From positions 1 to 32,479 of the IMG/VR virus record IMGVR_UViG_3300032224_000235: 32,479 bases of DNA; one strand, 5' to 3'. The notes under the pieces are model-generated. The model searched no databases, had not been told where the DNA came from, and saw only the letters and a list, made by a program, of their open reading frames with translations. This stretch comes from a virus. This document shows, piece after piece, positions 10,801 through 24,854 of this stretch. The position numbers and the translations under genes are program-made. Numbering within the stretch: position 1 is the stretch's first letter; each line of letters starts with the position of its first letter.

Positions 10801-13000
10801 TTCTGCCCGGGCCTTTTTGTGAATATAAAGCATCTTGCTTTAGATCGCGGCTTGTTGCCGCATACAAGGCATTTTGATATGCGCCCTTGAATTCTTCAAT
10901 GCTTGCATTTGGCATGTTTTCGCTTAGCTCTTCTCTGAAGCTATCAACGTCTACACCAATAGAGCGTGCATCATCCTCAAGGTCACGCAAACCTGCCTCT
11001 GTAAGTTCTCCACGAGGTTGCTCAGCCATTTGGCCAAGCTCATAGTTGGCCGCGGGAATAGAAGTTAAATTCTCAATCCGACTCTTTAACTCTTCTTTCT
11101 GATTTTGCAAAGCGCGCAAACGAACAGCAGACTCTTCGTTAATGTTTTCCCCGTTGCGCAACTTTTCAGCAATGTGTTCTATTGCCGTTTGCGAGTCAAA
11201 GTTTTCATTTTGTTCCATGCCAATCTTGGCACGATTGTCAAACGGCAAGTACTCATCCAACGCACCATCTGCAACTAGATCCTCCAACAATGCGCCCTGT
11301 CCCTTTGGGTTATACAACTGACGCAACCGCTTGTTGTCTTTATCAATGTCGGCCAAAGAGAAGGCTCCCGGACGATCTATCAACTTGCCTTTTAAATAAG
11401 AAAACAAATTTCCTTTGCCGGCTTGAGCTTCCTTTAGGTTTTTGTTAACCAATGCCAAGCCTGATCGTAAATCAGCAATCTCTTGCTTCTCTTCTGGAGG
11501 AGTTTCAAATAGAGTCTCACCACGCGGCTTCTTCTGTCCCCGCTCCGCCGGAACAAACTCAGGAGCCTCTGCCTCTATTAATTCAGCTTGCTTTATTGGA
11601 TCAGCCGTGGAAATTTCGTTAGCCTTTGCACGAGGCACGCCAAGCTCTTCCAGCGCCCTTTGCTGGGAAATAGTTTGCATTACCGGGTCTGCACTGAAGA
11701 CAGTCTTCATTACCCGGTTTATGGCTGCTTTGCGGGCGCCTTCATCTTTTTTAATTTGCGCCGCTTGATCAGCCCTGGCTTGGGTAATGATCTGCTGATT
11801 GGCGTCCGGCATACCGGTAAAGCCCGGCAAGCCAGCAACCCTAGCCCCTTGAGCCTGACGTTGCTCTTGCAATGCCTGTTGCTCAAATTGCTGAACATCA
11901 GCCTGCTCTTGCAACCTGGCCTGCTCTTCCATTGCTGCTTCACGGCGTAATTGAGTAGCCTGATCGGCTGTAAATCCGGCGGGAGAGGGTGGCAACGTTG
12001 CCACTTGCTCAGGAGTTTGTTGCTCCGGGGCAACGGGTGGAGCCTGCTCAGGCTTCAACAAATCCATGCCCGGACGGCGCTCAATATCAGGCGCACCACC
12101 CAAAACACGAGCGGCTGCACCGCCAACACCACCAACCGCAGCAGCACCAAAGAAAGCTTCTTTGTACTCCCGCTTGGCGTCTTCTGTATCCAAAGGAAGA
12201 CCGGCCTGCCAACGCTCTGCAATTTGCTCAATCACCTCAGTTGGTGCCTCGGCAAGAATGCCTAAGCCCGCCCCAGTTGCCGCCCTACCAGCAACAGATG
12301 CACCCGTCCGCTTAGCCAGTTCAGCAAGGGCACCCTCACCCAAAACTTTGGCAGGAACTTTGGTCAAACCAAGGGCAAATCTATCGGCAAAATAACCAAG
12401 AGGCGCAGTTGCCGCGGCCACAGCAGCTGCCTTGCCGGGTGCTAAGGTTTCACCAGTAGCTCCCTCTTGAGCTTGACGCTGCATGAATTGGCCAAACTGT
12501 TGCAAGCCATACGTTCCCAAGCCGGCAAGCGGGCCAACAATAGGTGCGGCAGGCCCGGACAGTGCGGCGGCACCAGCACCAACCGCCAAAGGCGCGGCCA
12601 TGCTTGGCGCACTTTGCAGTATCTGTTCGGCCACATACGTGGGAAATTTCTTAAGCGCCTCAATAGCGCCTTCTTTGCCGTAGGTTTGCTCTAGCTCTTC
12701 CCAGGTGGTAGGCATTGGGCCTTCCTTGGGTTGAGCCGCTTCTCTACGAATATCAGCGGCTTGCTGACCAGCTTGCTCTTTCATCCCAATAGCAGACTTC
12801 AAGCCAAGCCCTATACCGGCAACGCTTTCAACTGGCTCTTCCAAGCCACGTTTCGCCGCAGCCTTAGCCCGCTGAAGAAACGTTGGCTCTTCTTTTGGTC
12901 GCTTTAGGATGTCATTTTCAATGGCATCAATGATGTCCTTCTGGGACATTTCGTCAGGAAATCTAACCTGACCAACCCCCGGTACATTGACTATGGGCAT
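4820..13000 (-). CDS. Giant polyvalent protein, 2726 aa, with zincin, TGT-like and LPD38-like regions
   Basis: A single uninterrupted frame, started at ATG 12998-13000 with AAGGA upstream. Regions in order: VPGVGQVRFPDEMS at 6-19, an opening seen in phage ejection and polyvalent proteins; hydrophobic Gly/Ala-rich stretches at about 130-170, 190-215 and 235-300 that could cross or coat membranes; a Gln-rich coil at 345-385; the zinc-peptidase motif HELLH at 854-858 with Glu918 a likely third ligand; two related modules at about 1025-1475; a TGT/DpdA-like barrel at about 1535-1785; and a long helical C-terminus from about 1830 resembling LPD38 (LYPMFAVAQIPQDS near 2226). Such proteins in phages and plasmids are thought to enter the recipient with the DNA and counter host defences. 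It is the last gene of the late transcript. Confidence 0.88.
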   Translation of the reverse strand: MPIVNVPGVGQVRFPDEMSQKDIIDAIENDILKRPKEEPTFLQRAKAAAKRGLEEPVESVAGIGLGLKSAIGMKEQAGQQAADIRREAAQPKEGPMPTTWEELEQTYGKEGAIEALKKFPTYVAEQILQSAPSMAAPLAVGAGAAALSGPAAPIVGPLAGLGTYGLQQFGQFMQRQAQEGATGETLAPGKAAAVAAATAPLGYFADRFALGLTKVPAKVLGEGALAELAKRTGASVAGRAATGAGLGILAEAPTEVIEQIAERWQAGLPLDTEDAKREYKEAFFGAAAVGGVGGAAARVLGGAPDIERRPGMDLLKPEQAPPVAPEQQTPEQVATLPPSPAGFTADQATQLRREAAMEEQARLQEQADVQQFEQQALQEQRQAQGARVAGLPGFTGMPDANQQIITQARADQAAQIKKDEGARKAAINRVMKTVFSADPVMQTISQQRALEELGVPRAKANEISTADPIKQAELIEAEAPEFVPAERGQKKPRGETLFETPPEEKQEIADLRSGLALVNKNLKEAQAGKGNLFSYLKGKLIDRPGAFSLADIDKDNKRLRQLYNPKGQGALLEDLVADGALDEYLPFDNRAKIGMEQNENFDSQTAIEHIAEKLRNGENINEESAVRLRALQNQKEELKSRIENLTSIPAANYELGQMAEQPRGELTEAGLRDLEDDARSIGVDVDSFREELSENMPNASIEEFKGAYQNALYAATSRDLKQDALYSQKGPGRITKAVMSVVNSKQAKMQKELTGKTMIEAAQWAVNNAPNPFAKLTANKTLTMLKELQGRGVTFNFEVQGGNERSSMLSGAEGVTHFLWGKEGTNVTVFLNGAPVFVDQRGYPSGMTYDTLLHELLHVATRTSTKFLPPNHPLIKDLNELFNTVVRKYNADAKTGKLPPVLERYYKRINNVLATPDELISWGMNDKEFQKYLSEIKVGDKTVFSQLIDLVRKLIGMAKPFETALDRLVRTTEGLLDLDTEYLQNEMVSQTYSLGKPAPVQKAKPVPMRQQALFQRSTPVMQDTLEVRREGFFFDAKNSPLYQKRSAEDIKYPTKEQTAAAIARNATARKIMQERGNVANGAYVGLRQDLNIKDANLLAVHQGKESLHEKGAGFFSGDVQTYLPVATLKNVYFKIRQTTREAIAEGREFKSKMGSADGQIVKTDQPNFDGIELRFNPFREHLFVDAMGRAVKYVDEATIVAGRAFARGNIEYYGEEDAPARAGTAPTAARLMGQGEGQIKPIIDEPSGNVSISQQQSLFMQQAAIEDNLQKRAEGFYIRADQSPLYQKRSSSDMPQVTDDMFQRALAMHAKGARVEGKGSKIEPGDYVGVRLDVPIREASKKIFPPSGLPIQSIHKGTRSGIENSKGFFNNPVLKYAPNITIKNVHFKIDQAERAEIATGRKKSPMGSADGQFVRIGDPNFDGIELAFNPKREHLFVDALGRAIKYADEITAMGDRVYARGMIEYYGEEDIPSAGAAPSRAGPMVLETAIQEPVLRAVPDTNDGRVSDGQQQSLFMQQGLFGEDSDAVALEKIKKDLVRYASGMSGLSDFETGAYARSGHQSSGVGVDVGLLSKNAIDSMAHAVVDFRVPVFVDSGAFGNFRQMIKGNQPKPLDFDAILSKYDDITSAIAEFNVAEDNDYPRPLFVMPDIVGNQRGSLDLIKKHKNWITGELTGNLSQPIIPIQKGGLTLAQAYQEVVNTLGRDDFIVGVPSNAKAVSRDDLIKFLREAQPKRVHFLGAAADAKLNPLLGVVAHVSPNTRVTADASKVRSSILDGVAKGKTRQQAIMDALYDAQDVAVAPYLSESLSKQAAPTPTPIGEQSLEILAGMGREPKAPEPGYIQRVRQSWDNAVDNPKATAEAAQSGFRRYADMIETYAFSSDAALNNQIRRAIMESTLGQEEKIGALMNVSLSQTVHSDAISNLFLMKGDVRFNKELSKWEGVDSEYNIVNLSKKLDEIAAKYGLTKEQIQLISHTAFEAKRTKSLIRFNDQIDAEVAELRAMAAEERQKGNAVKASTLSEKASNLKMKQKYIHMTDEDIRAGMTQFELMPELSGAVDIWNGIRGNAVKVLVDSGLWTEAEADFLLSNADYVPFYREDQLEEGKGPKEFMRSLQVQAKERRLKGTDRPVNDIFDNMVRWTQYSINRAVRNRSAVALAKTAQAVGLGSEVKSKTDGNNVISVWIDGKETFFSMEDPMFMQAFQGLESVSIPTIRWAAKAADFLRQSVVLYPMFAVAQIPQDSFAAMFSSGLKPQHALSIPLRAVKEFILTLANKSKTHNELKNFGVVGVRDFTSAMVRNDAEVYAGLKAPPGMLGKIKNALSHIAMASDNAVRQATYLAAQAQGLSQSEALEKAFEIFNVRRKGSSRMLALAGQLIPFFNAYLAAQTVAYKTITGVGTSPTQRAEAYKVLFGTTASVMTLSILYAMMNGDDEDYLNKPTPTRDRLLMIPGSGGMSLPLRSDLFTLPKVIAEHTYLLLTDNGYEDGGKFRESMVSVLANAFLSPTAVPQVVKPFVEVLFNRDFFQNKPLIGVYQKNLETERQFTDSTSELGKVLGSTGIMSPIAIDHIIRGMFGSVGGLVMYATNPFLWTLRGDQSVPRPELSLQDAFATMPNASGFISKEYESALRKDFYQLREATGKASSTLADLKQRSPDKIEDYITDEAVRNRLGLAPAVEGIARNLTKIRQAITQITNSEMPADEKARQIKNLREAEREMLKGINLKEMREFAKI
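7646..8398 (-). other. TGT/DpdA-like barrel domain within the giant protein
   Basis: Residues about 1535-1785 carry the ordered motifs of the tRNA-guanine transglycosylase superfamily: VFVDSGAF with Asp1594, FVMPDIVG with Asp1649, IIPIQKG with Gln1684, DFIVGVPS, VHFLG and VTADASKVR with Asp1764. In TGT enzymes equivalent acidic residues perform base exchange and the glutamine binds the deazaguanine. DpdA relatives do this on DNA. The assignment rests on motif order and spacing read by eye, without alignment. Confidence 0.55.
9247..9260. repeat. Dispersed palindrome, one-mismatch copy
   Basis: TGGAAACGTTGCCA differs from the palindrome by one base in the left arm. It lies in the linker between the two duplicated modules of the giant protein and encodes G-N-V on the minus strand. 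Confidence 0.45.
9763..9776. repeat. Dispersed palindrome, exact copy 3
   Basis: TGGCAACGTTGCCA lies within the first duplicated module of the giant gene. Here it is read in a different frame (G-N-V-A-N) from the VATLP copies, so shared peptide selection cannot explain all copies. Confidence 0.7.
11989..12004. repeat. Dispersed palindrome, exact copy 4
   Basis: GTGGCAACGTTGCCAC, the full 16-bp form, lies in a proline-rich linker of the giant protein and encodes V-A-T-L-P from residue 333, the same peptide as in the ERF linker. Confidence 0.75.
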
Positions 13001-13008
13001 GGCAATCC

Positions 13009-15471
13009 TTAACGCAATGATCTGGTTTTAATATCATAGTCCAAGATGCCTTCATTGCCGCCCGGATCAACGTTATGAACGCTTTTGTAAAGCTCTCTGT
13101 ATCGTTTATTTGCAAGCAACTTCATTTGTGCATCAGCATCGACTTGGGCTTTCATGGCGTCTGTATATGCACCTTTTTTGTCTGCAATAAGCCTCTTTAC
13201 CATTAAATCTTCCATCTTATCTAGACTCTTGGCGTCAGCAATTTTTTGTTTTTGCACCATTCCTTCGGTACGCAAACGAATAGCCTCTCTGTCTTTAAAA
13301 CTCTTTTGTTCAAGCGCAGCTGTACTTGCTCTTTCTTTAGCCTCAAGCTGCGCCCTTTGAATCTCACGCAAAGGCCCGTACTTCTCCATAGCCAACTGAC
13401 CAGAAAGAATGTCACGCTCTTCCTGCGCCCGCTGAGCAGCAGACCTTTGGAAGGTGGCAATACCTTGCTGTGCGCCCTGACCAATGTTGGCCGAGGCATA
13501 GGGTGATGTACCACCCATCATGCCAAAACCGGCAGAAAGTAACGCCATGTAATTGTCAATCTCGCGCTGTTGTTTGCTGGCAGCAGATCGTTCGGCAAGA
13601 AGCTTCTCAAGGCCGCTTAGTTCTTTAGCGCCTTCTTCCTTCTTGACTGCGCCAGCTTCTTTATTTTCAGCCATTTGCATTTGGCCTGAAACTAAATCTG
13701 CCTGTTCCTGAGACACGGCTTCATTTGCACCTTGCAAAACTGATTTGCGCTCATCTTCATTTTCACGCGCTACATCTTCTTGATCTCTTGCGTAAGCAGT
13801 GTTGGCACCTCTCAAGGTTTCTTGAGTTTGCATGGTTGGCATAACATTTCTTGCCAACCAATTTTTTGCAAATTCTTCCCGAGCGCCAGGACTTAGTTTG
13901 CGCTTTTTTTCGTCAGCGTCTTCAATGCGTTTAATTTCTGAAGCAATCTTATCTTCAATTGTTAACGGCTTCATAGGAAGCAGCTTCTCATTAGTTGTAA
14001 TGGTAGGGGGCATATCTCTGCGACGAGCAAGCTCCTCATCCTCATTTGCATTTAGCGTGCTTGGAGTCAATGCCATAAGCCCAAGAGAGGCGGGAGATAA
14101 ACGTGATGCAGCGGCACCAGCCCTACCAGCCAATGCTTTAATCTTGTCCATATAAGACAAACCAGCAGAAACTTCGGCTGGAGCGGCGGCAGCAGGAGCC
14201 GCAGGATTGGCACTAAATGCTGCTCTTAATTGCTCCATACGCAATCGACGAGCAGCCTCTTCACGTATCTTCTTGGCTTCATCAGAAACATCATAAGCCG
14301 TGATTCCGGCTTTGGCTGGGGCAGAGGCAGCTGAATTAGCGGGCATGGCCGAGAATGCGGCACGAGCATCACCAATCTTCATTTGACGCCGAGCATATTC
14401 ACGAGCCTCTTCAGGAGTCATGTTAAATATGTCGCCCAAACCACCGCCAGCCAAGCCAATAATGCCGCCATTAGCCAAACCTTGAATGTAGTTCCTTGTC
14501 TCCGCAGGTAGTTTGCTAGGGTCAGCCCCAGCCATCAACCATTTGTCAGTGTTACCCGGCCCCCAGTTGTAGGCAATAGCAGCCAACTTGGAGTCTTTAT
14601 ATCGCGCTTGCATAGCCTTTAGATAGTCGCGGCCAACACGGGCCATCTCATCAGGACTGTTATCTTGAGCGGGCCTAACGCCAAAGCCAGGATCACGCTG
14701 AGTGCCGGGCATGACTTGCATCTCACCTTGAGCGCCCTTGGGCGAGGTCAGCAAATTATTGTCTTTGTCATAGCGCTGACCACGGCTTTCCTTGTGCAAA
14801 ACATGCTTGAGCAAACGATCATCCACCCCGGTGGCAGGCTGCTCAGTACGAATGTTAGAAAGCAATTCTGGACTGATACCACCAACAGGTGAGTACACGG
14901 CTTCTTTTTCCCGGCCAACAGTCCGAGCAGGCATACCCTCTTCTTTGGCGGTTGCAGACTCGCGCATATATTTGGCAAGCAATGGAATACTAGTAGATGG
15001 CGTCGATACCTCTGACTCGCCCATATCTTCATCGCCCGACTCTTCTTCTTCTGGATTTTGCTCTTCATCCATGCTGGCTAAGAGAGCGCGCACATAGTCC
15101 ATCTCATCGTCGTCTTCATCGCCTAAATATTGAGACGCCATGTCAGACATGCTGGTGCCGCCACCGGCAAAGGCAACGATGCCACCATTTGCATAAGACT
15201 CTTCATCAGACAGGTTTGTAGGCAATGCGGGAATGCCGGCTGTTGCTTGAGCATGTTGCATAACCTGATCTGCAATGGTTGGCTGTGGCCCCTGCTGTTG
15301 TTGCTGCATTCGTTGAGAAGCCATCTTTGCTTTTTGAGCATCAGTAACTTTTTGATTGAGCAAAGGAATGCCAATAAAAGACGGAATAGTCCCATTTTGA
15401 ATAGCCGTTTGCAACTGCGGAATGGACAACTTTTCAGCCATGCGGGCTTTGGTGTCAAGACTATTAATCAT
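13009..15471 (-). CDS. Virion protein with soluble lytic transglycosylase domain, 820 aa
   Basis: Residues about 220-325 form an SLT-type transglycosylase domain: HVLHKESRG with the probable catalytic Glu228, KGAQGEMQVMPGT, and AAIAYNWGPGNT. Such domains cut peptidoglycan from inside the virion during DNA entry, as T7 gp16 does. Upstream are YANGGIVAFAGGG (93-105) and a very acidic stretch (about 117-150); after the domain comes LANGGIIGLAGGG (332-344). The C-terminal half is a long charged helical region with the segment LLSAGFGMMGGTSPYAS and probable coiled coils. The ATG overlaps the previous stop (TAATG) and has AGAGGTG before it. It lies eight bases ahead of the giant gene, suggesting that both products are ejected. 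Confidence 0.87.
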   Translation of the reverse strand: MINSLDTKARMAEKLSIPQLQTAIQNGTIPSFIGIPLLNQKVTDAQKAKMASQRMQQQQQGPQPTIADQVMQHAQATAGIPALPTNLSDEESYANGGIVAFAGGGTSMSDMASQYLGDEDDDEMDYVRALLASMDEEQNPEEEESGDEDMGESEVSTPSTSIPLLAKYMRESATAKEEGMPARTVGREKEAVYSPVGGISPELLSNIRTEQPATGVDDRLLKHVLHKESRGQRYDKDNNLLTSPKGAQGEMQVMPGTQRDPGFGVRPAQDNSPDEMARVGRDYLKAMQARYKDSKLAAIAYNWGPGNTDKWLMAGADPSKLPAETRNYIQGLANGGIIGLAGGGLGDIFNMTPEEAREYARRQMKIGDARAAFSAMPANSAASAPAKAGITAYDVSDEAKKIREEAARRLRMEQLRAAFSANPAAPAAAAPAEVSAGLSYMDKIKALAGRAGAAASRLSPASLGLMALTPSTLNANEDEELARRRDMPPTITTNEKLLPMKPLTIEDKIASEIKRIEDADEKKRKLSPGAREEFAKNWLARNVMPTMQTQETLRGANTAYARDQEDVARENEDERKSVLQGANEAVSQEQADLVSGQMQMAENKEAGAVKKEEGAKELSGLEKLLAERSAASKQQREIDNYMALLSAGFGMMGGTSPYASANIGQGAQQGIATFQRSAAQRAQEERDILSGQLAMEKYGPLREIQRAQLEAKERASTAALEQKSFKDREAIRLRTEGMVQKQKIADAKSLDKMEDLMVKRLIADKKGAYTDAMKAQVDADAQMKLLANKRYRELYKSVHNVDPGGNEGILDYDIKTRSLR

Positions 15472-17096
15472 TATGCGGCACCTCTATTCATGGTGTTATA
15501 TAAACCCAAGCCGGCGATACCCGCCGTACCCAATCCAGCAACTTGAGACAGAGTGCTGGGGGCAGCTTGATAAGTTTGAGCCGTAGTTGCCTGCATTGGA
15601 AGTCCGCGTAGCAAGTTGCTCATGTTACCCAACTGCATCATTGGGTATTGTTGAGCCGTACCGTAATCTTGAATCTGCTGATTGATCTTGGCCTGCTCCA
15701 TAGCCTGCTGTTGACCACCTGCTTGTTGCTGCAATCCAATGTTTCCAACCTGCTGGCCGTACATAGTTTGGCCCAGTTGACCCAATTGGCCCGCTGCGGA
15801 CAGCCCGGTTTGCAATCCTTGCATACCCAAACCTGCGCCGTACTGACGAGATTGCTCCCCAGCTTGTTGCCCAGCCAGCCCATACTGTGCACGTTGCTGA
15901 GCAGCAGTCATGCCTTGACCAGCACCAAATTGACGAGACTGTTCACCTAATTGTTGCGCGGTCATGCCTTGCTGTTGATTGGCCAACTGTGCTTGGAGGT
16001 TTTGCCCAGCGCCAAGTTGTTGAGTTTGTAACAGCGCACCAAGATTTTGCTGGCCTACGTTGTAACCCATCTGCTGATTAGCAAGCTGAGACTGAAGGTT
16101 TTGCCCTGCGCCCAGTTGTTGTATGCCCAATTGAGCGCCAAGATTCTGCTGGCCCACAGTAAGACCCGCGCCTTGGTTGGCCAACTGTGCTTGCAAATTA
16201 GCCTGTTGCTGGGCGTTGAATTGCTGCTGAGCGTTTTGAAACGCGGCGTTCTGCCCGGATGCTTGGATATCGCCTTTTTGAATGGCTAAGTTACGAGCGG
16301 CTTCTGCATCCATGATGGCGGCACGAGAACCACCAAACGCGCCAGATCGAGTAGCTTGTCCAGCACGCTGCGTTCCTGCAATGTCCCCTTGACGCTGTGC
16401 TTCACGTTGCTGAATGTCCACCACATTCTGCATGTAGGGATTCATATACTGACTGACATTCTGGCCCGTGTAATCTTGGGTACCCACCTGTTGGGCTGGG
16501 TCCATTTGATATTGTTGTAGCCCAGGCGCATTTACATCTGACGGCCCTTGCATCTTATAATTTTGCAACCCAGGCGCATTAACTTGTTGGGCGTTAAATT
16601 GCCCGGCTTGATAATTTTGCGGAGCTTGGAACTGATTATCAAACTGCCCTGCTTGGTAGTTTGCCCCCATGGCGCGTTGCCCAGCCAAACCCGCCAGACC
16701 AGACGCTGTGTCCAACTGTGGAGCAGTTCCAAGTTGGCCAATCTGTTTAAAAGCGTTTTGTTGTAATGGTTGAAACCCAGCAAAATAACTGTTTGGGTCA
16801 GAACTAAACGGCTGGTACGGCTTGATCGTAGTTGGGGTCATTGCCCCAGTCACCGGATCTTTGTCGTAGTTGTAAACTTGCTGTTGAGCAGAACCCAACA
16901 TGGTTTCTACATACGGCTTTGCATACTCAGGAATATTGGTGTTTTGTACCGTAGTTTGAGTAGGTTGAGCTTGTGGTGCTGGACCGCCGCCACCGCCACC
17001 ACCATAAATAATGCGGCCACCCTCTTTACGAGTAACGCCATCTCCGAGCATCTCGCCCAAAGCATACAATTCTTGACGAGAAAAACTTGTTTTCAT
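15471..17096 (-). CDS. Gln/Gly-rich repetitive virion protein, 541 aa
   Basis: After a short N-terminal segment (GGRIIYGGGGGGG near 27-39, then PEYAKPYVETML) most of the protein is a low-complexity repeat of glutamine, alanine, glycine, asparagine and leucine. Recurrent units are QLGAGQNLQ, QLANQQ, VGQQNLG and GEQSRQ(F/Y)GAG. This composition is typical of extended internal or ejection proteins of short-tailed phages rather than enzymes. It is followed by the transglycosylase gene (TAATG overlap) and preceded by a GNAT gene (ATGA overlap, AGAGGTG ribosome site), placing it in the ejection-protein block. The precise role is unknown; a tail or internal-core structural role is inferred. Confidence 0.75.
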   Translation of the reverse strand: MKTSFSRQELYALGEMLGDGVTRKEGGRIIYGGGGGGGPAPQAQPTQTTVQNTNIPEYAKPYVETMLGSAQQQVYNYDKDPVTGAMTPTTIKPYQPFSSDPNSYFAGFQPLQQNAFKQIGQLGTAPQLDTASGLAGLAGQRAMGANYQAGQFDNQFQAPQNYQAGQFNAQQVNAPGLQNYKMQGPSDVNAPGLQQYQMDPAQQVGTQDYTGQNVSQYMNPYMQNVVDIQQREAQRQGDIAGTQRAGQATRSGAFGGSRAAIMDAEAARNLAIQKGDIQASGQNAAFQNAQQQFNAQQQANLQAQLANQGAGLTVGQQNLGAQLGIQQLGAGQNLQSQLANQQMGYNVGQQNLGALLQTQQLGAGQNLQAQLANQQQGMTAQQLGEQSRQFGAGQGMTAAQQRAQYGLAGQQAGEQSRQYGAGLGMQGLQTGLSAAGQLGQLGQTMYGQQVGNIGLQQQAGGQQQAMEQAKINQQIQDYGTAQQYPMMQLGNMSNLLRGLPMQATTAQTYQAAPSTLSQVAGLGTAGIAGLGLYNTMNRGAA

Positions 17097-17506
17097 ATTT
17101 TCACCTCTACTACGGTGTAGCGTTCAGCAAACCCATACCTCTTCCACAGACGGGCAATTGATTCCCGTACTGCACCTTGAATCTTTGTTGCACCCATACT
17201 GCGCAAAACATTTTTTAATTGCTCAAATGTGTCATCATTTGAAATTAATTTACCGCCAATTGCCGTTACAAAAGCAACCCGATCATTGGGGTAATTTGCA
17301 AAAGATATGGTCGCCGCACCATGCACATTCTTTTCTTCATCAGAAGCCACCAATAAAACCCACTGACCCAGTGCCACATACATTTTTATTTGGTCTAACG
17401 AATAATCGTTACCATTAAATTTTTGGGCAGCAGCAATATGCTCTTCGACCAAAGGCCAAGTTTGAGCAACAAACTGCTGCGGTACGTGCTGGACTAAAAG
17501 ATTCAT
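17093..17506 (-). CDS. GNAT-like acetyltransferase-fold protein, 137 aa
   Basis: The sequence order fits a compact GNAT fold: an N-terminal helix (WPLVEEHIAAAQKF), strands around WVLLVAS and HGAATISFA, then RVAFVTAIGGK and the C-terminal ESIARLWKRYGFAERYTVVEV, the typical end of N-acetyltransferase domains. The canonical acetyl-CoA loop (Q/RxxGxG/A) is not clear, so catalysis may be lost. T7-like phages carry a comparable small GNAT-like protein (gp13) beside their internal virion genes, and this gene has the same setting. ATGA overlaps link it to both neighbours, so translation is probably coupled. Confidence 0.7.
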   Translation of the reverse strand: MNLLVQHVPQQFVAQTWPLVEEHIAAAQKFNGNDYSLDQIKMYVALGQWVLLVASDEEKNVHGAATISFANYPNDRVAFVTAIGGKLISNDDTFEQLKNVLRSMGATKIQGAVRESIARLWKRYGFAERYTVVEVKI

Positions 17507-18564
17507 GCCGGAACGTATTTGCGCGGATTAATTTGACGGCCTTGCATACTTTTTCCTGTGCGGGCTACGCGGACTTTATCCATCATCTTGTACAACTGTT
17601 TTGCCCCGGCATCAGTGGAGCCGTTGCCAAGATGGGATACCACATCAGCAGGTACAACAAACTCGCCATCAGCTAAACGGGCAGGTTGTTTGTTGCTTAT
17701 GGTTGCAGGAATGCTGTCGCTCATGCCATCTCCTGGGCCTTTGAGCATGCGCCCACCATCTGAATAACCACCCAAGCTGGCAATGCCGCCTTCAGCATAC
17801 GAATATCTAGTGGGCGTATATGGCGTAGGTTGAGAGGTTGTGGTTGGAGTATATCGACTTGGGTCATATTGAAACTTACTTAACGGGCCAGAATACTTTT
17901 CTTGTGGCGGCGTTCCGTATTTATTCTTGTCAGCATTTAAAGCTTGGAGTGCGCCATACCCTATACCAGCATATCGAAGTTCTTTGGGGATAGAGCTATA
18001 CGCTTTCATAACGGACTCAAAAGCGCTTGGCCCACCTTGGTTACCCATTTTGAGTAACTCTTGATTTTGGCCAAGCTCTGAGGATGCCAAATCAAATTCA
18101 GAAGGAAACATGCTTGCATTGGCAAGTGAACTTGCGCTTTCAGTGCCAGCTCCTGGGAATTGACTAAACCCGGAACCACCGTAATTTGCGCCTTCAGCCG
18201 CATTCAACGCATCAAATGCTGCGGCATTTGTTCCTGCTCCACCAGCCACATTAACAGCCGCACCATTCATTAAAGGATTGTTTCCAACGCCGGCATCTTT
18301 AAACGCATTAACTATTTGATCATAAGCCGCAGGATTTGCCGTTTGTAGTGTTGGTGTTAGTGAGCTTAAACCAGGAACGGCGGGTGCTTCTGGGATCATC
18401 CCCATAGCCGTGCCATCTCCCAATCCAGTTAGTGACGCAATCCCGGCGGCGGTTCCAGCGCCTGTGCCAGCAAGTCCCATGGCCTCACCAACACCTCCAA
18501 CGCCCATATCAAACGCGCCGGTTTCAAGTAGAACTTCTGCTGCGGGTGCTTCAAATCCAGACAT
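17503..18564 (-). CDS. Phage structural protein with GGI/GGR C-terminal motifs, 353 aa
   Basis: The N-terminal two thirds is glycine/alanine-rich and probably flexible. The C-terminal third has a distinctive conserved block: YAEGGIASLGG (256-266), SDGGRMLKGPGDGMSDSIPA, ARLADGEFVVPADVVSHLG and a lysine/arginine-rich end (KSMQGRQINPRK). This block is shared by many uncultured phage proteins next to ejection genes. AGGAG seven bases before the ATG gives a strong ribosome site, in contrast to the coupled genes downstream. It lies between a short hypothetical and the GNAT gene. A virion assembly or ejection role is inferred from context; no enzyme signature is present. Confidence 0.75.
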   Translation of the reverse strand: MSGFEAPAAEVLLETGAFDMGVGGVGEAMGLAGTGAGTAAGIASLTGLGDGTAMGMIPEAPAVPGLSSLTPTLQTANPAAYDQIVNAFKDAGVGNNPLMNGAAVNVAGGAGTNAAAFDALNAAEGANYGGSGFSQFPGAGTESASSLANASMFPSEFDLASSELGQNQELLKMGNQGGPSAFESVMKAYSSIPKELRYAGIGYGALQALNADKNKYGTPPQEKYSGPLSKFQYDPSRYTPTTTSQPTPYTPTRYSYAEGGIASLGGYSDGGRMLKGPGDGMSDSIPATISNKQPARLADGEFVVPADVVSHLGNGSTDAGAKQLYKMMDKVRVARTGKSMQGRQINPRKYVPA

Positions 18565-18599
18565 GTGGATCTCCTAATATATTGTCAAATGGTATCATG

Positions 18600-18926
18600 T
18601 TAGACCTTTATCCGCAAAGGGTAGCTGGTTGCCACACCGCCCGAAGTATCGTAGTAAATGTCACCAGAACGCAGGTTGGCAAAGTCAGCTTGCGTTGGCA
18701 GGCTGATAACGGATTGTCCGGGTGTAGTGAGACTTGGTTGGGCAAATGTCATACCCGACACCACCCCGGTAGTCCCAACGCCAGCAGACGCAAAAACGGC
18801 AGGAGTAGGGCTGTTTATTTGGTTGAAATATAGCCGCAGAATGTTCATAAATTGCTCTTGATATTGAGCACTGTATTGATCTGGAGCCGATGGCAGGCGC
18901 GGGGGAGTAACGGTTTTAAATCCCAT
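18600..18926 (-). CDS. Conserved phage hypothetical protein, 108 aa
   Basis: The ATG at 18924-18926 is preceded by GGGAGGAG and lies one base after the stop of the upstream tail gene; a longer in-frame start further upstream overlaps that gene by more than 130 bases and is rejected. The protein begins MGFKTVTPPRLPSAPDQYS followed by a helix QEQFMNILRLYFNQINSP, then a Ser/Thr/Val-rich part ending DIYYDTSGGVATSYPLRI. Similar short proteins follow the large tail protein gene in related phages. The LRLYFNQI helix and beta-rich tail suggest a small tail-structure component, but the function is unknown. Confidence 0.72.
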   Translation of the reverse strand: MGFKTVTPPRLPSAPDQYSAQYQEQFMNILRLYFNQINSPTPAVFASAGVGTTGVVSGMTFAQPSLTTPGQSVISLPTQADFANLRSGDIYYDTSGGVATSYPLRIKV

Positions 18927-18927
18927 G

Positions 18928-21027
18928 TCATCTCCTCCCATCCGGGCGAATGTCAATACGAGGAGCGCCCAGTTGCCACTGCACACCCAGCCCATCCGTT
19001 GCTGACCCTGTGGTTCCAGAACTGACCTTGAACGCCATCTGCCGCCCACGTATTCGAACATAGACCTGCTGGGTGAACTGCTGCACGCTGTACGTAATCT
19101 GATTTTGGTAGTTCTGGGTGCTTACCACTGCCGGGTCGTTCGAGTTTCCGTATGCCGCACCAGGGAAAGTCCGAGGCAAAGCAGTGAAATACGCAGTCGG
19201 CTGGTTAACGTTAGAGCCGTCAAACGTCAGGTCAGGGATTAAACGCCACACAAACCCAAAGTTGTTGCCATCCCCAATGTCAAAGTCAGATGACTGCACA
19301 TTGGCCACAATTGGAGTAGGTGGGTTAACCGTGCCATCATCTACGCCATTTTCGTGATAAACCAGTAGCGCGTTTGAACTGCCGCCAGCAGCGCCATAGG
19401 TAACTGCCATAGGAAATTGACGTAGCGCACTGTCCAACCACGCTGTTCTACCTTGATAGGCCGTACCTGTGTAGTTTGACCAATCGCCGTAGTACCAAAC
19501 GTTATCTAAATAGTTGTATATAACATAGCGGTCAACCACGTTTGAATTGGAAGAACAATATTGCCACCAAACTTCGTTGTAGCCCTCATTGGTTCCCGCA
19601 ACAAATTGGAAAGATTGGGAGATGTTTATGTCTGTGTACACATACTCACGCAACGTAGATGGCAACGTTTCCACCCGGCCTGAGTACATATAAAACTTAT
19701 CCAACCCCATCCAATATGTGATGTTGTTGGCTGTGGCTACTGCATTGGGGCCAGCAATAGAGATGTTGTCGCCCAGAATCTGAAAGCTCCACACATAGGG
19801 CGGGCCTAAATACTGCATAGAGTAGATTGTGGAATCCGTAAACACCAAAATTTCTTGCCGGGTTTGTTGAGCCGTAATAATGGACGATCCGTGGCTTAAC
19901 CTGTAATCTCCCGCTTGGTTGGTAATGGCGGGTGTCCAAACCAACAAATTTTCTTGGTCAGACCAACGTATTTGCATGGGGTCTAGCGTTGCGGTGGCAT
20001 ACACCCCGGTTGGATCATTTGTGCCAAAAGCAACTGTGAATCGACTGGCGTCCGACACCAACACAAAATTGCATACCGTTGGACAAGTGGAGTCCGCATC
20101 CCAATAAGCAACACTGTTCTGCGTGTTGGTGTTACTGGCATTAACCACTTGAGCGCGGTTAAAGATGGTTGGGTTTGAATCCGCTACCCAGTAGTAGATT
20201 GCCCCGCCACGAGGGTTAAACACCAAGTTTTGACCGTAGTTTGATTGGCTCCAAGTGCGCAGTTGCAGTCCAATACCAAGACCTGCGGGAGCTGCTGCGC
20301 CCCATCCTGGACCACCTGTGTAACTGCCCCACACACCTGCACCCCAGCCCACACCCACGGTGTACACATCCCCACCTGTTGTGATTTGAAAGGCAAACGA
20401 GGCTGCGCCAGTGGTTCCCGCAGTCACCGTAACGGCAGATGAAACGTAGACCTGTATAGAGAACTGAGAGCTACTAATATAAGTAATTTGAAATTCTGCA
20501 TTAAGGTTTGCGGCAGGGATGCCGTTGACCGCACTGGCTACCCCAGAAATGGTTACGAAATCGTTTGTCTGCCCGTTGTAACCAGAGACGTTACATTTCA
20601 CCGTTACATACCGGGCGGTGCCTGACGAAGAAGCAGTCGTAGTAAAAGCATTGGAAGCAACACTGACTGCTGCGGGAGGAATACCCGTTATGGGAGTCAC
20701 ATCATAAAAGTTACCACCTGGGCCGTTTTGGATGTAGTACTTGAGATTGGTACCCATTGCCAACAAGTTATAGCCAGAAAGAGTAACCCAGTTCCACATG
20801 GCGCGGCATACGCCCCACAGCGTTCCCGTTGTTGGATATGTAATGCTAGTGGTTGTGCCTGCAACATCAGTAGATAAAGCACCATTGTCTTTTGCCCAAC
20901 CGCCAATTTTTTCTGGTTGTCCCGAACGGAAACGCACCTTGTTGGTTTGCCACCAGCCACCTTCATTGGCGTAGTTGGTGTTTTCTCGGTTTGTCCCCGC
21001 CCTAAACGCAAGCTTCTGTAAAGGCAT
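18928..21027 (-). CDS. Large tail protein, P22 gp10 / tail-tube-B-like, 699 aa
   Basis: The N-terminus (MPLQKLAFRAGTNRENTNYAN then GWWQTNKVRFRSGQPEKIGGW) defines a frequent phage family in which a beta-strand-rich protein caps or extends the short tail. The long body is rich in Trp, Tyr, Thr and Gly repeats with segments such as TYWMGLDKFYMYSGRVETLPS and VIYNYLDNVWYYGDW, as in packaged-DNA stabilisation (P22 gp10) and T7 gp12-like proteins. The C-terminus is QQVYVRIRGRQMAF. A good Shine-Dalgarno (AGGAATC) overlaps the endolysin stop. It carries a one-mismatch copy of the dispersed palindrome at 19660-19673. Structural assignment is fairly sure; which of the two tail roles is not. Confidence 0.78.
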   Translation of the reverse strand: MPLQKLAFRAGTNRENTNYANEGGWWQTNKVRFRSGQPEKIGGWAKDNGALSTDVAGTTTSITYPTTGTLWGVCRAMWNWVTLSGYNLLAMGTNLKYYIQNGPGGNFYDVTPITGIPPAAVSVASNAFTTTASSSGTARYVTVKCNVSGYNGQTNDFVTISGVASAVNGIPAANLNAEFQITYISSSQFSIQVYVSSAVTVTAGTTGAASFAFQITTGGDVYTVGVGWGAGVWGSYTGGPGWGAAAPAGLGIGLQLRTWSQSNYGQNLVFNPRGGAIYYWVADSNPTIFNRAQVVNASNTNTQNSVAYWDADSTCPTVCNFVLVSDASRFTVAFGTNDPTGVYATATLDPMQIRWSDQENLLVWTPAITNQAGDYRLSHGSSIITAQQTRQEILVFTDSTIYSMQYLGPPYVWSFQILGDNISIAGPNAVATANNITYWMGLDKFYMYSGRVETLPSTLREYVYTDINISQSFQFVAGTNEGYNEVWWQYCSSNSNVVDRYVIYNYLDNVWYYGDWSNYTGTAYQGRTAWLDSALRQFPMAVTYGAAGGSSNALLVYHENGVDDGTVNPPTPIVANVQSSDFDIGDGNNFGFVWRLIPDLTFDGSNVNQPTAYFTALPRTFPGAAYGNSNDPAVVSTQNYQNQITYSVQQFTQQVYVRIRGRQMAFKVSSGTTGSATDGLGVQWQLGAPRIDIRPDGRR
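19660..19673. repeat. Dispersed palindrome, one-mismatch copy in tail gene
   Basis: TGGCAACGTTTCCA differs from the palindrome by one base in the right arm and encodes V-E-T-L-P on the minus strand, close to the VATLP peptide of two exact copies. Confidence 0.45.
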
Positions 21028-21035
21028 TTTGATTC

Positions 21036-21512
21036 CTATGACAAGAACATGGCGCGTTCGTCAATTCGACGGTTTTGCAGCCCTTTGAGTATTTTCCCAC
21101 CAGCCATGCAATACTTCAAGAGTTCTTCCGCAGCACCCGCTTTATCGCCCCGAAGCAGCTTTTGACGAAGCGTTGAACGCTGGAGTGTTCCAAGACCGAC
21201 ATTAAAACTAAAGCTGACAAGGCCATCAAACATACCTTGTGTAAGGGGAACGGGGCAAAACTGAGCAACTCCACGCTCGAACCTTGCAAGATCAAACCTG
21301 AGAATCCCATCTACTTCTTCCTTTGAAAAAACACGGCTATCTTCTGGGCGAAGCGGGTAATCTCCTCTTTGATCCATTGGTATCTTAGCTTGGTCTGGGT
21401 AAAGTACATGTCCAACTCCTATTGTCCAAAGCAATGCTGGGCACCGATACGGCTTGTACCGAATGCCCTCGTGGTGGCAGATGACCTTGATGGCCTCTGG
21501 GCTGACGTTCAT
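21036..21512 (-). CDS. Endolysin, GH24 T4-lysozyme-type muramidase, 158 aa
   Basis: The GH24 catalytic arrangement is complete: Glu15, then eight residues to Cys24, then five residues to Thr30 (HHEGIRYKPYRC-PALLWT), the E-8-(D/C)-5-T pattern. GVGH follows immediately. Further family features are LTQGMFDGLVSFSFNVG and LLKYCMAGGK, and the C-terminus NRRIDERAMFL matches phage lysozymes. The enzyme cleaves peptidoglycan at the end of infection. No signal peptide or signal-anchor is present, so export depends on the holin encoded at 22136-22639. The start lies in an ATGA overlap with the 205-residue gene and has only a weak ribosome site. Confidence 0.92.
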   Translation of the reverse strand: MNVSPEAIKVICHHEGIRYKPYRCPALLWTIGVGHVLYPDQAKIPMDQRGDYPLRPEDSRVFSKEEVDGILRFDLARFERGVAQFCPVPLTQGMFDGLVSFSFNVGLGTLQRSTLRQKLLRGDKAGAAEELLKYCMAGGKILKGLQNRRIDERAMFLS

Positions 21513-22126
21513 ATCATCCGAACCCTACCGCCTGCGCGGTAATCTGATGGCAATTCAACACTACCCCCCATTGCCATTTTTAACGGATTTATACTGTGTT
21601 GCAAATTATCTATGCCGGGACGATAGCCGCTCCTACCCCCAACAAGCGGCAACACTTTTTCAATCTGACTTCCAATATGGAACTTGCCTTTTGTTCCAGC
21701 AGGGCTTTCACCCACTCCAAAACGAGAACTTTGCATAAGTTCTATGGGGTGTAAACCTTCTTTAGGCACTGCCGAAATGGGCACAGTAGCCACAATATCG
21801 CCAACTTTTTCTTTTCGTTTGGGATGCGCCTGCGTCATTTGTACTTGAACCGCGCTAAGTTTTCCGTCTTCGTCCATTTGTGGCAAAAGCCGCGTGCCAA
21901 TATGTTCGTTTGCCATCCAGTCTTGGATTGTTAATGCGCTTTTGGGGTCTGCATAAAAAGTCTTTGATGATCTTGGTTGCATCTGCTGACCAGTCCCTGG
22001 CATGTTTGACGGCTCACGGTATCCAGTAGTGCTGGCATCTGGGTGGGCTGCGTATATAGACCCGCGTTTGCCCGTAAAGTAGTGGGTGGCATCTTCTAAA
22101 CCAGCAAGGGGTGCGTACTCTTCCAT
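21509..22126 (-). CDS. Hypothetical phage protein with GGS/GGR C-terminal motif, 205 aa
   Basis: The protein lies between holin and endolysin in the late transcript and has a good ribosome site (AAGGATG). Most of it is polar with mixed strands (GDIVATVPISAVPKEGLHP); the C-terminus ends MAMGGSVELPS then YRAGGRVRMI. That ending is similar to the GGI/GGR blocks of the other virion proteins in this module. A segment such as FYADPKSALTIQDWMANEHIG may be a globular core. I do not recognise an enzymatic family. The C-terminal similarity suggests that it is part of, or associated with, the virion rather than a lysis protein. Confidence 0.7.
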   Translation of the reverse strand: MEEYAPLAGLEDATHYFTGKRGSIYAAHPDASTTGYREPSNMPGTGQQMQPRSSKTFYADPKSALTIQDWMANEHIGTRLLPQMDEDGKLSAVQVQMTQAHPKRKEKVGDIVATVPISAVPKEGLHPIELMQSSRFGVGESPAGTKGKFHIGSQIEKVLPLVGGRSGYRPGIDNLQHSINPLKMAMGGSVELPSDYRAGGRVRMI

Positions 22127-23363: not shown

Positions 23364-24854
23364 TTAACTCAATTCAACCCAAGTACCTAGCGTAAACCCG
23401 CTACCGCCTACTACAGTGTCTACCTTGTATGTACTCCCACTGGGAATAATGGCAGATATGCTTGCAGTATTGTTTGCACTACCGTTTCTGCCTTGAGAAG
23501 ACGCAATAAGACTATCTATATAAAAATAAAAGAACGTTGATGAAGACGAGTTATTTAAAGAAATCAAAACTTGAATTGGTCTACCCGTGCTGTTGGTGTA
23601 CGTTGTATCAAGCGCTCTGGACGGAGCGCTCCAAGTCTGAGATGCGCCAATTGGTATGGCAGCAGTAGCAAGACCAGCAACACCCACAGCCCCGGCAGCT
23701 ACAGCATTGGCAGTTGTTGCCGTCGTAGCAGTCGTTGCATTAGTGGCGTTTGTTGCGTTGGTGGCGTTTGTGGCGGAGGCAACAGACTGAGAAGCAATGT
23801 TGCTAGACGTTATAAACGACCCGCCCGAAGCTGGGTTTGTAGCATAGGTTGAGTTGGTAGCGTTCGTAGCGTTTGTGGCATTTGTGGCGTTGGTAGCAGA
23901 GGCAACAGACTGAGAGCCAATGTTGCTCGATGTTATAAATGAACCACCAGATGCCGGGTTTGTGGCATAAGTTGAATTGGTTGCATTTGTTGCATTTGTT
24001 GCATTGGTGGCGTTTGTAGCCGAAGTGGCACTTGTGGCGGTGGCAGCGTTGCCAGAAATAGAAATGCCCCATGTACCCGACGCACCTGTGCCTGTCAATG
24101 TAGGCGCGTAGCTGTTGTAGTTACCTGTAGTTAAACCGTTTGTGGCTGTAGCCGCATTGCCAGAAATGCTAATACCCCAAGTACCCGACGCCCCCGTGCC
24201 TGTCAGCGTAGGTGCATAGCTGTTGTAATTGCCTGTAGTCAGTCCGTTTGTAGCCGTGGCAGCGTTGCCAGAGATGTTAATACCCCAAGTGCCAGATGCG
24301 CCCGTACCCGTGGGGGCTGGAACATCCGTACCAATGGTTAACCCTAAGTTTGTTCTTGCGCTGGCTGCTGTGGTTGCGCCCGTACCACCATTGGCAACGG
24401 CCAAAGTACCTGTCAGATTGGCTGCTTGCAGTTCATAGAAATTGGTTGCATCAGACCAGACCATGATTTTGGAGCCATTGGTAACCGTAACTCCAGTACC
24501 CGCTGCTGTGGTATTACCAATCACAGTCGAGTTGTAGATGGTCAACGAGTATCCGCTGTTGTTCCAAATAATATATGCCTTGGAGTTTGGCGGCGCATAG
24601 ACAGCAAAAGCCGCCCCAGTCGTAGTAGTGAACCGCAACATGGCGTACACGGCTTGGTTGTTTGCTGCCGTGGACGTTGGGCCGTTGGTGTATGTCAGAG
24701 CTTGACTGGCGGCGGTGACGCTAACCGTCTGATACCCGGCAACCGAAGAGTCCAGCACATAGGCCAAGTTGTTGTTGGTTGTATCCCCCCACGTACCCGC
24801 TTGGGCGCCGTTGGTGATGAGTTCAATCCGCAGATTTGATGAATACGTACTCAT
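23364..24854 (-). CDS. Repetitive tail fiber protein, 496 aa
   Basis: The N-terminus (MSTYSSNLRIELITNGAQAG then TWGDTTNNNL) is a common fiber or tail-tip attachment region. It is followed by a fiber-like stretch with the ANGGTGATTAASARTNLGL motif found in many phage fibers. Three copies of a 36-residue unit (GTGASGTWGI..ISGNAATATN) come next, then two copies of a 41-residue unit (STYATNPASGGSFITSSNI) joined by runs of NAT triplets. The end (TYTNSTGRPIQVLISLNN onward) is non-repetitive and may bind the receptor. The strong ribosome site AAGGAAAACC precedes ATG. It is the last of the fiber genes in the transcript. Confidence 0.83.
   Translation of the reverse strand: MSTYSSNLRIELITNGAQAGTWGDTTNNNLAYVLDSSVAGYQTVSVTAASQALTYTNGPTSTAANNQAVYAMLRFTTTTGAAFAVYAPPNSKAYIIWNNSGYSLTIYNSTVIGNTTAAGTGVTVTNGSKIMVWSDATNFYELQAANLTGTLAVANGGTGATTAASARTNLGLTIGTDVPAPTGTGASGTWGINISGNAATATNGLTTGNYNSYAPTLTGTGASGTWGISISGNAATATNGLTTGNYNSYAPTLTGTGASGTWGISISGNAATATSATSATNATNATNATNATNSTYATNPASGGSFITSSNIGSQSVASATNATNATNATNATNSTYATNPASGGSFITSSNIASQSVASATNATNATNATNATTATTATTANAVAAGAVGVAGLATAAIPIGASQTWSAPSRALDTTYTNSTGRPIQVLISLNNSSSSTFFYFYIDSLIASSQGRNGSANNTASISAIIPSGSTYKVDTVVGGSGFTLGTWVELS
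23728..24330 (-). repeat. Tandem DNA repeats of 108 and 123 bp in fiber gene
   Basis: A 108-bp unit recurs with the GCCAGA core at 24051, 24159 and 24267. A 123-bp unit recurs with the core GGCAACAGACTGAGA at 23778 and 23901. Between them lie 9-bp repeats encoding N-A-T. Copies differ at third codon positions, so they are not very recent duplications, but the frame is always kept. Confidence 0.8.

Follow-up and report, generated by a model that had tools for sequence, protein, structure and literature searches.

Does a short glycine-rich peptide that recurs in neighbouring, otherwise unrelated viral proteins mark them for a common purpose, or does it recur by chance? The question is raised by IMG/VR virus record IMGVR_UViG_3300032224_000235, which we analysed as a single window comprising the entire record (32,479 bases). 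The original prediction saw one motif in four virion-associated proteins of 820, 353, 541 and 205 amino acids (aa) and proposed that it could serve in packaging, processing or polymer contact. The strings that it quoted are all present: YANGGIVAFAGGG and LANGGIIGLAGGG in the 820-aa transglycosylase-type protein, YAEGGIASLGGYSDGGR in the 353-aa protein, EGGRIIYGGGG in the 541-aa protein (from residue 25) and MAMGGSVELPSDYRAGGRV in the 205-aa protein (from residue 184). Our analysis establishes that an A-x-GG-I motif is real, conserved, directional and concentrated in what we presume to be an ejection-protein module, and it suggests that the motif is a shared docking tag rather than a product of chance; the membership of the 541-aa and 205-aa proteins did not hold up equally well (vide infra).

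The consensus, [MYF]-A-x-G-G-[IVL]-x-x-[FL]-x-x-GG, reads in one direction; the column frequencies in 236 distinct contexts are [MYF]-A-x-G-G-[IVL]-[AVS]-[ADS]-[LF]-x-x-G-G, with the first six positions fixed by the seed pattern and the final two the weakest. For counting, we used the strict form [YFLM][AS].GG[IVLM], and the 36 open reading frames (ORFs) of the window were called with a simple longest-ORF script rather than a gene finder, so some are spurious. These ORFs contain five strict copies, compared with an expectation of 0.59 when each protein is shuffled within itself (five were reached in 1 of 1000 shuffles), and three strict copies that are followed by a second GG, when 0.028 are expected (none of 1000). 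In the four named proteins the count is four, compared with 0.165 expected (none of 5000 shuffles). Three of the five copies are in the 820-aa protein, where motif copies are found on either side of the soluble-lytic-transglycosylase (SLT) domain, one is in the 353-aa protein (taken singly, 279 of 5000 shuffles reach its one copy), and one is in a repeat-rich 392-aa putative fibre protein; the 541-aa and 205-aa proteins contain none. Tandem copies at short spacing also occur (e.g., GGIVAF..GG and GGIASLGGYSDGGR). The RTX calcium-binding repeat has the form GGxGxDxUx; on inspection of the window strings and the column frequencies, no RTX-like tandem nonapeptides with GxD were seen.

The motif was then counted in 161 viral loci, reached via relatives of the 820-, 353-, 205- and 699-aa proteins, together with the window; the loci overlap by contig, and counting identical proteins once gives 1724 different ORFs. 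These contain 272 strict copies in 205 proteins, compared with 28 copies of the reversed pattern, and the excess is sharper where a second GG follows after two to six residues (119 vs 1). Using the gene for the 699-aa virion structural protein as an anchor in 80 loci, we found 98 copies downstream (8 reversed; 259 proteins, 117,160 aa) and 11 upstream (4 reversed; 553 proteins, 112,573 aa), with a peak two genes downstream, that is, at the usual site of the 353-type gene (43 copies in 20,991 aa). By BLAST cluster, the motif-bearing fraction is 70 of 87 for the 353 cluster, 9 of 12 for the 820 cluster, 17 of 89 for the 541 cluster and 1 of 124 for the 699 cluster; several of the motif-bearing proteins in the 541 cluster also match the N-terminal domain of the transglycosylase-type proteins and appear to be fusions with it. 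The 353-type and transglycosylase-type families form separate clusters, and further clusters carry the motif too. Most copies are internal (244 of the 272), with 21 located within 15 residues of the N-terminus and 7 within 30 residues of the C-terminus.

A broader sample of related contigs gave the same distribution. Among 16 contigs searched, 8 had a match, with 13 matches in all and 1 for the reversed control; 12 of the 16 were then fetched in pieces of at most 20 kb (at most 60 kb each, with ORFs cut at the borders). Inside the module we counted 29 copies (2 reversed; 79 ORFs, 50,630 aa) and outside it 12 (5 reversed; 817 ORFs, 163,642 aa), that is, 5.7 vs 0.73 copies per 10,000 aa. Equal frequency in non-virion phage proteins had been named as the result that would count against a virion role, and it was not what we observed; because "outside" includes other virion genes, this comparison is stricter than a virion/non-virion split. 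Five of the 12 outside copies are in four C-terminally tagged proteins of the head module, and the other seven are near the reversed background of five.

As an independent sample, viral contigs as a whole were searched for DNA stretches that encode A.GGIVAF, and at least 120 matched. The peptide is in frame in an ORF in 114 of the 120 sampled (56 of 120 for the reversed peptide); a downstream same-strand ORF of at least 700 aa is present for 55 of the 82 matches that have any same-strand ORF downstream (0 of 38 reversed), and a protein with GPGxSDxIxA is among the six genes upstream for 28 of the 49 matches with at least four upstream ORFs (0 of 33 reversed). Those six upstream genes contain 84 motif copies vs 6 reversed, and all other genes contain 3 vs 9. 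When the 114 in-frame matches were searched with a profile of the transglycosylase-type N-terminal domain from which the motif had been removed, 16 were detected at E < 1e-3 and 11 more up to E 1; 83 were undetected, and 4 had too little upstream sequence. By eye, at least five of the 114 (L187, L197, L267, L277 and L289) look unrelated to the rest.

In the very divergent transglycosylase-type proteins, the motif is almost the only part without variation. In an alignment of 38 transglycosylase-type proteins with a mean column identity of 19%, the invariant positions are G79, A94, G96, G97, I98, G104 and G105, and six of these seven columns are the motif; 37 of the 48 listed relatives were used, and of the 11 that were dropped nine belong to the 541-type cluster (fused or long). 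For the 353 family, 107 proteins (window included) were matched by the C-terminus, 60 relatives were listed and 49 were aligned with the window protein; in these 50 proteins, G259, G260, Y267, G270 and G271 are invariant together with much of the C-terminal segment. The invariance resides in the protein and not in the DNA: the 143 distinct [MYF]A.GGI contexts use 124 different 18-nucleotide words, so selection on the motif acts at the protein level, and explanations at the DNA level (a repeat, recombination or a regulatory site) are ruled out by the same count. An internal start codon at the MA of the motif was also rejected: ATG is used there more often than any other codon (82 of 143), but TAT, TAC and TTT account for the other 61. 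The two glycine codons of the motif are GGC or GGT in 134 and 127 of the 143 contexts, with GGG and GGA rarer than in ORFs at large.

In AlphaFold models, motif copy 1 lies inside residues 78–123 of the 820-aa protein, all with a predicted local distance difference test (pLDDT) score below 50; 10 of the 13 residues of copy 2 lie inside residues 335–349 of the same protein, also below 50; and 13 of the 17 residues of copy 3 are in segments of the 353-aa protein with pLDDT below 50. No strands are predicted at the motif in either model. The 820-aa model has N-terminal helices, a low-confidence linker with the motif, the SLT domain, the second motif and long helices; its N-terminal domain is well predicted and its SLT domain partly so. 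On these models, the motif segments are probably disordered.

The four-protein claim fared differently in its two halves. One motif in otherwise unrelated proteins is what we find for the transglycosylase-type and 353-type families, and in relatives an extra gene carries it as well. For the other two proteins the claim finds no such support. In the 541-aa cluster, GGR[IV] occurs in the first 90 residues of 16 of 89 members, and a plain GGGG run is present in 73 of 89, behind several different leaders; the 541-aa string therefore looks like a lineage-specific leader followed by poly-glycine, and its reading as an instance of the motif is not supported. The leaders of this family that precede the poly-glycine run include SRRELYA..., FFxGPR..., WLTGQ... 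and MNILDM.... The 205-aa protein has one relative, 90% identical, in which the tail is kept, and the membership of its tail is unproven.

The extra gene, which is absent from the window and may represent more than one family, lies between the 353-type and 137-type genes (L031:10416-12215, L034:4269-6596, L066:2525-4138, L037:2876-3919 and L028:10470-11252). Its motif is N-terminal (MAGGGVA...) in some phages, whereas others have it at the C-terminus (MARGGIASLLRRR, FAEGGITSLVDKE) and L028 has it at either end.

The C-terminus of the 353-aa protein suggests a link between the module and tape-measure proteins. Its matches among named phages number eight. Three records, at 2e-14, are from the MinM2 group; Caulobacter phages supply four more at 2e-5, one of them annotated as tape measure; and the eighth, at 6e-5, is DSL-LC04 (also tape measure), a metagenome-assembled lake phage (PMC10611076). 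MinM2, Pag-Yong1 and Pra-JY27 each have a relative of the 353 type. The 353-aa protein has a C-terminal segment homologous to that of tape-measure proteins (FADGG..GPGTGxSDSI.A...GEY), with alignments at 2e-5 and 6e-5 for the two annotated entries, and FADGG or FANGG precedes the segment in three of the loci (L163, L166 and L169). A 37-aa peptide containing the motif and the 353 segment matched 138 records; among the 60 listed, 46 carry a tape-measure annotation and 14 lack one, all with E values between 0.04 and 7, so that each match is weak when taken singly. The context FADGG...GPGTGRSDSI occurs in Dinoroseobacter R26L and Morganella Henu15, and Pseudomonas Gregale has FATGGRIKGPGTGTSDSIP, without a strict copy. 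In DSL-LC04, the 759-aa protein contains FANGGIASL, and a 645-aa protein encoded two genes further along contains MANGGIVQRF. The 353-type protein of MinM2 has YAEGGALRA, which is not a strict copy, but a 533-aa protein encoded two genes further along has one that is. Unlike a tape measure, however, the 353-aa protein is short and is encoded in a module with podovirus-like gene order, and it lacks the long, mostly helical build (its longest predicted helix has 22 residues, in a low-confidence model). Among solved structures, the 353 family matched only 2-isopropylmalate synthases (E 0.09 to 0.13).

We favour, tentatively and with something less than even confidence, the reading that the motif is a docking peptide for one shared partner at the tail or portal vertex. 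A docking peptide would be expected to look as this motif does: invariant although its surroundings seem disordered, free in position, and used repeatedly. The presumed ejection proteins would carry this short linear motif, in one to three copies, on probably disordered tethers; within the virion it would bind a single partner common to them all, with the portal, the adjacent 699-aa protein and a further ejection protein as the candidates, and unrelated ejection proteins would thereby be gathered and kept in the exit channel up to the departure of the DNA. The tail lumen is favoured over the capsid wall because the C-terminus of the 353-aa protein resembles tape-measure segments. Docking or packaging is favoured because the residues are invariant within disorder-like segments and the motif may be internal, N-terminal or C-terminal; as far as the sequences go, packaging, processing and polymer contact cannot be separated.

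The alternatives differ in how they accommodate this combination of invariance and mobility. Shared descent would make the motif a conserved turn of a small domain that the models did not build, present in a few divergent families with no common partner. Its attraction lies in the fixed place of the 353-family copies (94 of 97 anchored proteins have a further GG[ILVM] within 45 residues upstream of GG[RK]..GPG) and in the layout, judged by eye, of 34 scan matches chosen for a motif at residues 85–165, all with a helix-like N-terminal start, a linker rich in proline, glutamine and methionine, and then the motif; however, the motif is also found at the N- and C-termini of other module proteins and flanks the SLT domain in the 820-aa protein, in segments with very low pLDDT, and we regard descent of this kind as doubtful. 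Homotypic assembly, in which the GG-spaced stretches of different ejection proteins would stack in a trans-envelope tube, would explain the short-spaced tandem copies and the occurrence of two strict copies in 26, and three in 9, of the 106 proteins (>200 aa) with the 353 C-terminal segment; with 53 of the 106 holding a single strict copy, 18 holding none, and no strands predicted at the motif, this account is unlikely.

Cleavage by a maturation protease at or beside the double glycine would suit a motif that is highly conserved and probably accessible, and in T4 internal proteins are known to mature by proteolysis (PMC9026906); the invariant residues are nevertheless spread over 12 positions (residues 94–105), and the motif also occurs N-terminally, where cleavage would remove little, so processing is quite improbable. 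A glycine-rich hydrophobic patch that aids entry into the envelope, by contact with membrane or cell wall, fits copies such as GGIVAFAGGG; the copy in the 353-aa protein is hydrophilic around its second half (SDGGR), and in the transglycosylase-type family the motif is often followed by acidic residues (DGGE, EGGE), leaving this idea with very little probability. Composition or chance in glycine-rich linkers is probably the right account of the 541-aa string; for the motif proper it is scarcely credible, given the reversed-pattern and shuffle controls, which do not tell against it for the 541-aa and 205-aa strings, and the invariant columns.

Several observations weigh against the docking reading. 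Its partner is hypothetical, and the module proteins are presumed, from gene order and domains, to be virion proteins that are ejected. The scan matches are alike in layout even where the N-terminal-domain profile detects nothing (the 83 of 114), which keeps distant descent in play, and much of the motif sharing may be descent. The query that found the relatives in the 38-protein alignment included the motif, which favours its invariance there. The mean pLDDT values of the models are low (55.4 and 67.0), so the low scores at the motif may reflect modelling failure and not disorder. The 18 proteins without a strict copy do retain the 353 C-terminal segment, and the regions of SR18, C130_2 and ParMal1 that were reached through the SLT domain (L164, L165 and L168) contain 1, 0 and 0 strict copies, the single one in an ORF opposite to the annotated genes; thus, the motif is not general to ejection proteins. 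In addition, the motif forms of the 353-type and transglycosylase-type families showed no covariation in 41 distinct pairs. In tblastn searches of named phages, the motif-only peptide gave a single match (E 7) and the L177 protein none; the L064 protein matched 684 records, with the listed rows confined to residues 111–322 (the SLT region).

The features of the window are collected in Table 1. On the minus strand, the gene order is repeat-rich fibre-like proteins (by eye), lysozyme (a PF00959 match), and then the genes for the 699-aa, 353-aa, 137-aa, 541-aa, 820-aa and 2726-aa proteins; from this order and the domains, the genes between the 699-aa protein and the giant protein look like an ejection-protein module. 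In the 820-aa protein, PF01464 covers residues 207–313 (E 1.4e-12; 47.6 bits vs a cut-off of 21.3), and the same stretch matches phrog_19855 (virion structural protein; 4.6e-24) and the annotated DNA transfer proteins of C130_2 and IME_EC2; Foldseek placed Slt enzymes first (E 0.018, prob 1.00), with zero matches at E ≤ 0.001. Residues 362–524 of the 699-aa protein match a solved chain (9nwi_Y, 1.6e-13; one entry, six chains). No terminase, portal or capsid gene was recognised in the window, although no search was aimed at them.

Table 1. Positions of the motif copies and of the genes discussed (window coordinates).
Feature	Coordinates	Strand	Evidence or remark
Motif copy 1, YANGGIVAFAGGG, 820-aa protein residues 93–105	15157..15195	-	Six invariant residues (38 aligned proteins)
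Motif copy 2, LANGGIIGLAGGG, 820-aa protein residues 332–344, directly after SLT domain	14440..14478	-	String present
Motif copy 3, YAEGGIASLGGYSDGGR, 353-aa protein residues 256–272	17749..17799	-	Five invariant residues (50 aligned proteins)
820-aa transglycosylase-type protein with SLT domain	13009..15471	-	PF01464, phrog_19855, model
353-aa protein, presumed ejection module	17503..18564	-	423 relatives among pattern-matched viral stretches (best 80 kept)
Conserved C-terminal segment of 353-aa protein, MLKGPGDGMSDSIPA...DGEFVVPADVV	17506..17748	-	Related to tape-measure C-terminal segments
541-aa Gln/Gly-rich protein, leader EGGRIIYGGGG	15471..17096	-	Motif membership of leader not supported
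Leader region of 541-aa protein	16983..17096	-	Leaders vary in the family
205-aa protein, C-terminal tail MAMGGSVELPSDYRAGGRVRMI	21509..22126	-	One relative only; tail common to both
699-aa virion structural protein, upstream of module, anchor gene	18928..21027	-	phrog_3287, 9.7e-47
2726-aa giant protein, closes module, without strict motif	4820..13000	-	LPD38, 1e-18 (C-terminal domain); two stretches match Phage_L5_gp82 (PF25735)
496-aa protein	23364..24854	-	Long NATNATNAT repeat runs and duplicated TGTGASGTWGISISGNAATATN units
392-aa repeat-rich protein, putative fibre protein	28613..29791		One strict motif copy

The relatives also revealed a second element: a C-terminal tail, GG...[RK][AG]DG[IC]AxRGKT[RK]Gxxx (e.g., KMASGGMTASRRADGIASRGKTKCKMY), that is common to small proteins whose genes lie near the capsid gene and whose bodies are mostly unrelated (L419:9502-9846, 10533-11495 and 11504-12004 (+); L429:15027-15707 and 15716-16147 (+); L438:7584-7898, 7900-8409 and 8596-9153 (-); and further examples in L446-L565). 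In relatives with head genes, the genes of the tagged proteins follow, in the downstream direction, that of the major head protein, for which the one example tested matched phrog_371 at 1.2e-21; a relative's capsid protein matched no solved structure. No ORF of the window has this tail, and the tag peptide had zero tblastn matches in named phages. A scan of viral contigs for D-G-I-A-x-R-G-x-T-x-G returned at least 120 stretches, again a sample, with 1810 ORFs, in which a wider form of the pattern occurs 211 times and its reverse never; exactly three residues follow the pattern in 150 of the 211 copies, and a GG is found within 28 residues before it in all 211. Two to five tags are present on 64 of the 108 tagged contigs, and 1 of 149 pairs of tagged proteins that share a contig has detectably related bodies (bodies <30 aa are not comparable). 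Across contigs, the bodies form 80 clusters, the two largest of which (49 and 43 proteins) account for a large share of the sample.

Six of the 12 contigs have the tag in the pieces that were fetched (1–3 copies) and six have none there, although one of the tagless six (G001) has a tagged protein across the border of the fetched sequence (L097:239-514); three of the six have a 309-aa capsid variant. In five of the six, module proteins besides the giant one still carry the ejection motif in its strict form; thus, the tail tag and the ejection motif are separable. A more general reading would treat both as portable virion addresses, A-x-GG-I on disordered tethers for ejection proteins and the tail for small proteins encoded near the capsid gene, each recognised by receptors in the capsid or at the portal vertex; we find it rather doubtful.

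Known targeting systems offer partial parallels. In T4, the first ten residues of IPIII are enough for incorporation into the head, and fusions to the capsid targeting sequence (CTS) brought foreign proteins into the head (PMC9026906). As with the CTS, one short sequence is here common to several protein families; the CTS itself, however, is N-terminal and is removed by the prohead protease, whereas the A-x-GG-I motif is mostly internal (the 21 of 272 copies near an N-terminus include none of the three window copies). Family 1 encapsulin targeting peptides, with the consensus SDGSLGIGSLKRS, dock cargo into an HK97-fold shell (PMC8346489), and the C-terminal ends of a few module proteins (e.g., MARGGIASLLRRR) resemble them by eye only. 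Unlike those peptides, most motif copies are internal, with 7 of 272 near a C-terminus, and a partner on the tail side has at least equal likelihood. Packaging of ejection proteins takes place in the procapsid, and they have been located either over the portal or scattered through the head (PMC8954989). The module resembles the ejection genes of short-tailed phages in following a tail-side structural protein, in its SLT domain and in its giant closing protein; no PHROG or Pfam match of the window proteins was named as a T7 or P22 ejection protein, although no direct comparison was made. We found no description of either the A-x-GG-I motif or the tail tag in the literature searched, which covered only part of the field, and exact-string queries returned unrelated papers only.

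As the most conserved part of such proteins, the motif would provide a handle with which to find ejection proteins by sequence and to name their receptor, and it would link the ejection proteins of podovirus-like modules with tape-measure proteins. It may also allow phage particles to be loaded with foreign proteins, which the T4 targeting sequence has already been used to do. If the portable-address reading were true, any protein could be loaded by acquiring a tag, and this would apply to the tailed phages represented by many IMG/VR contigs.

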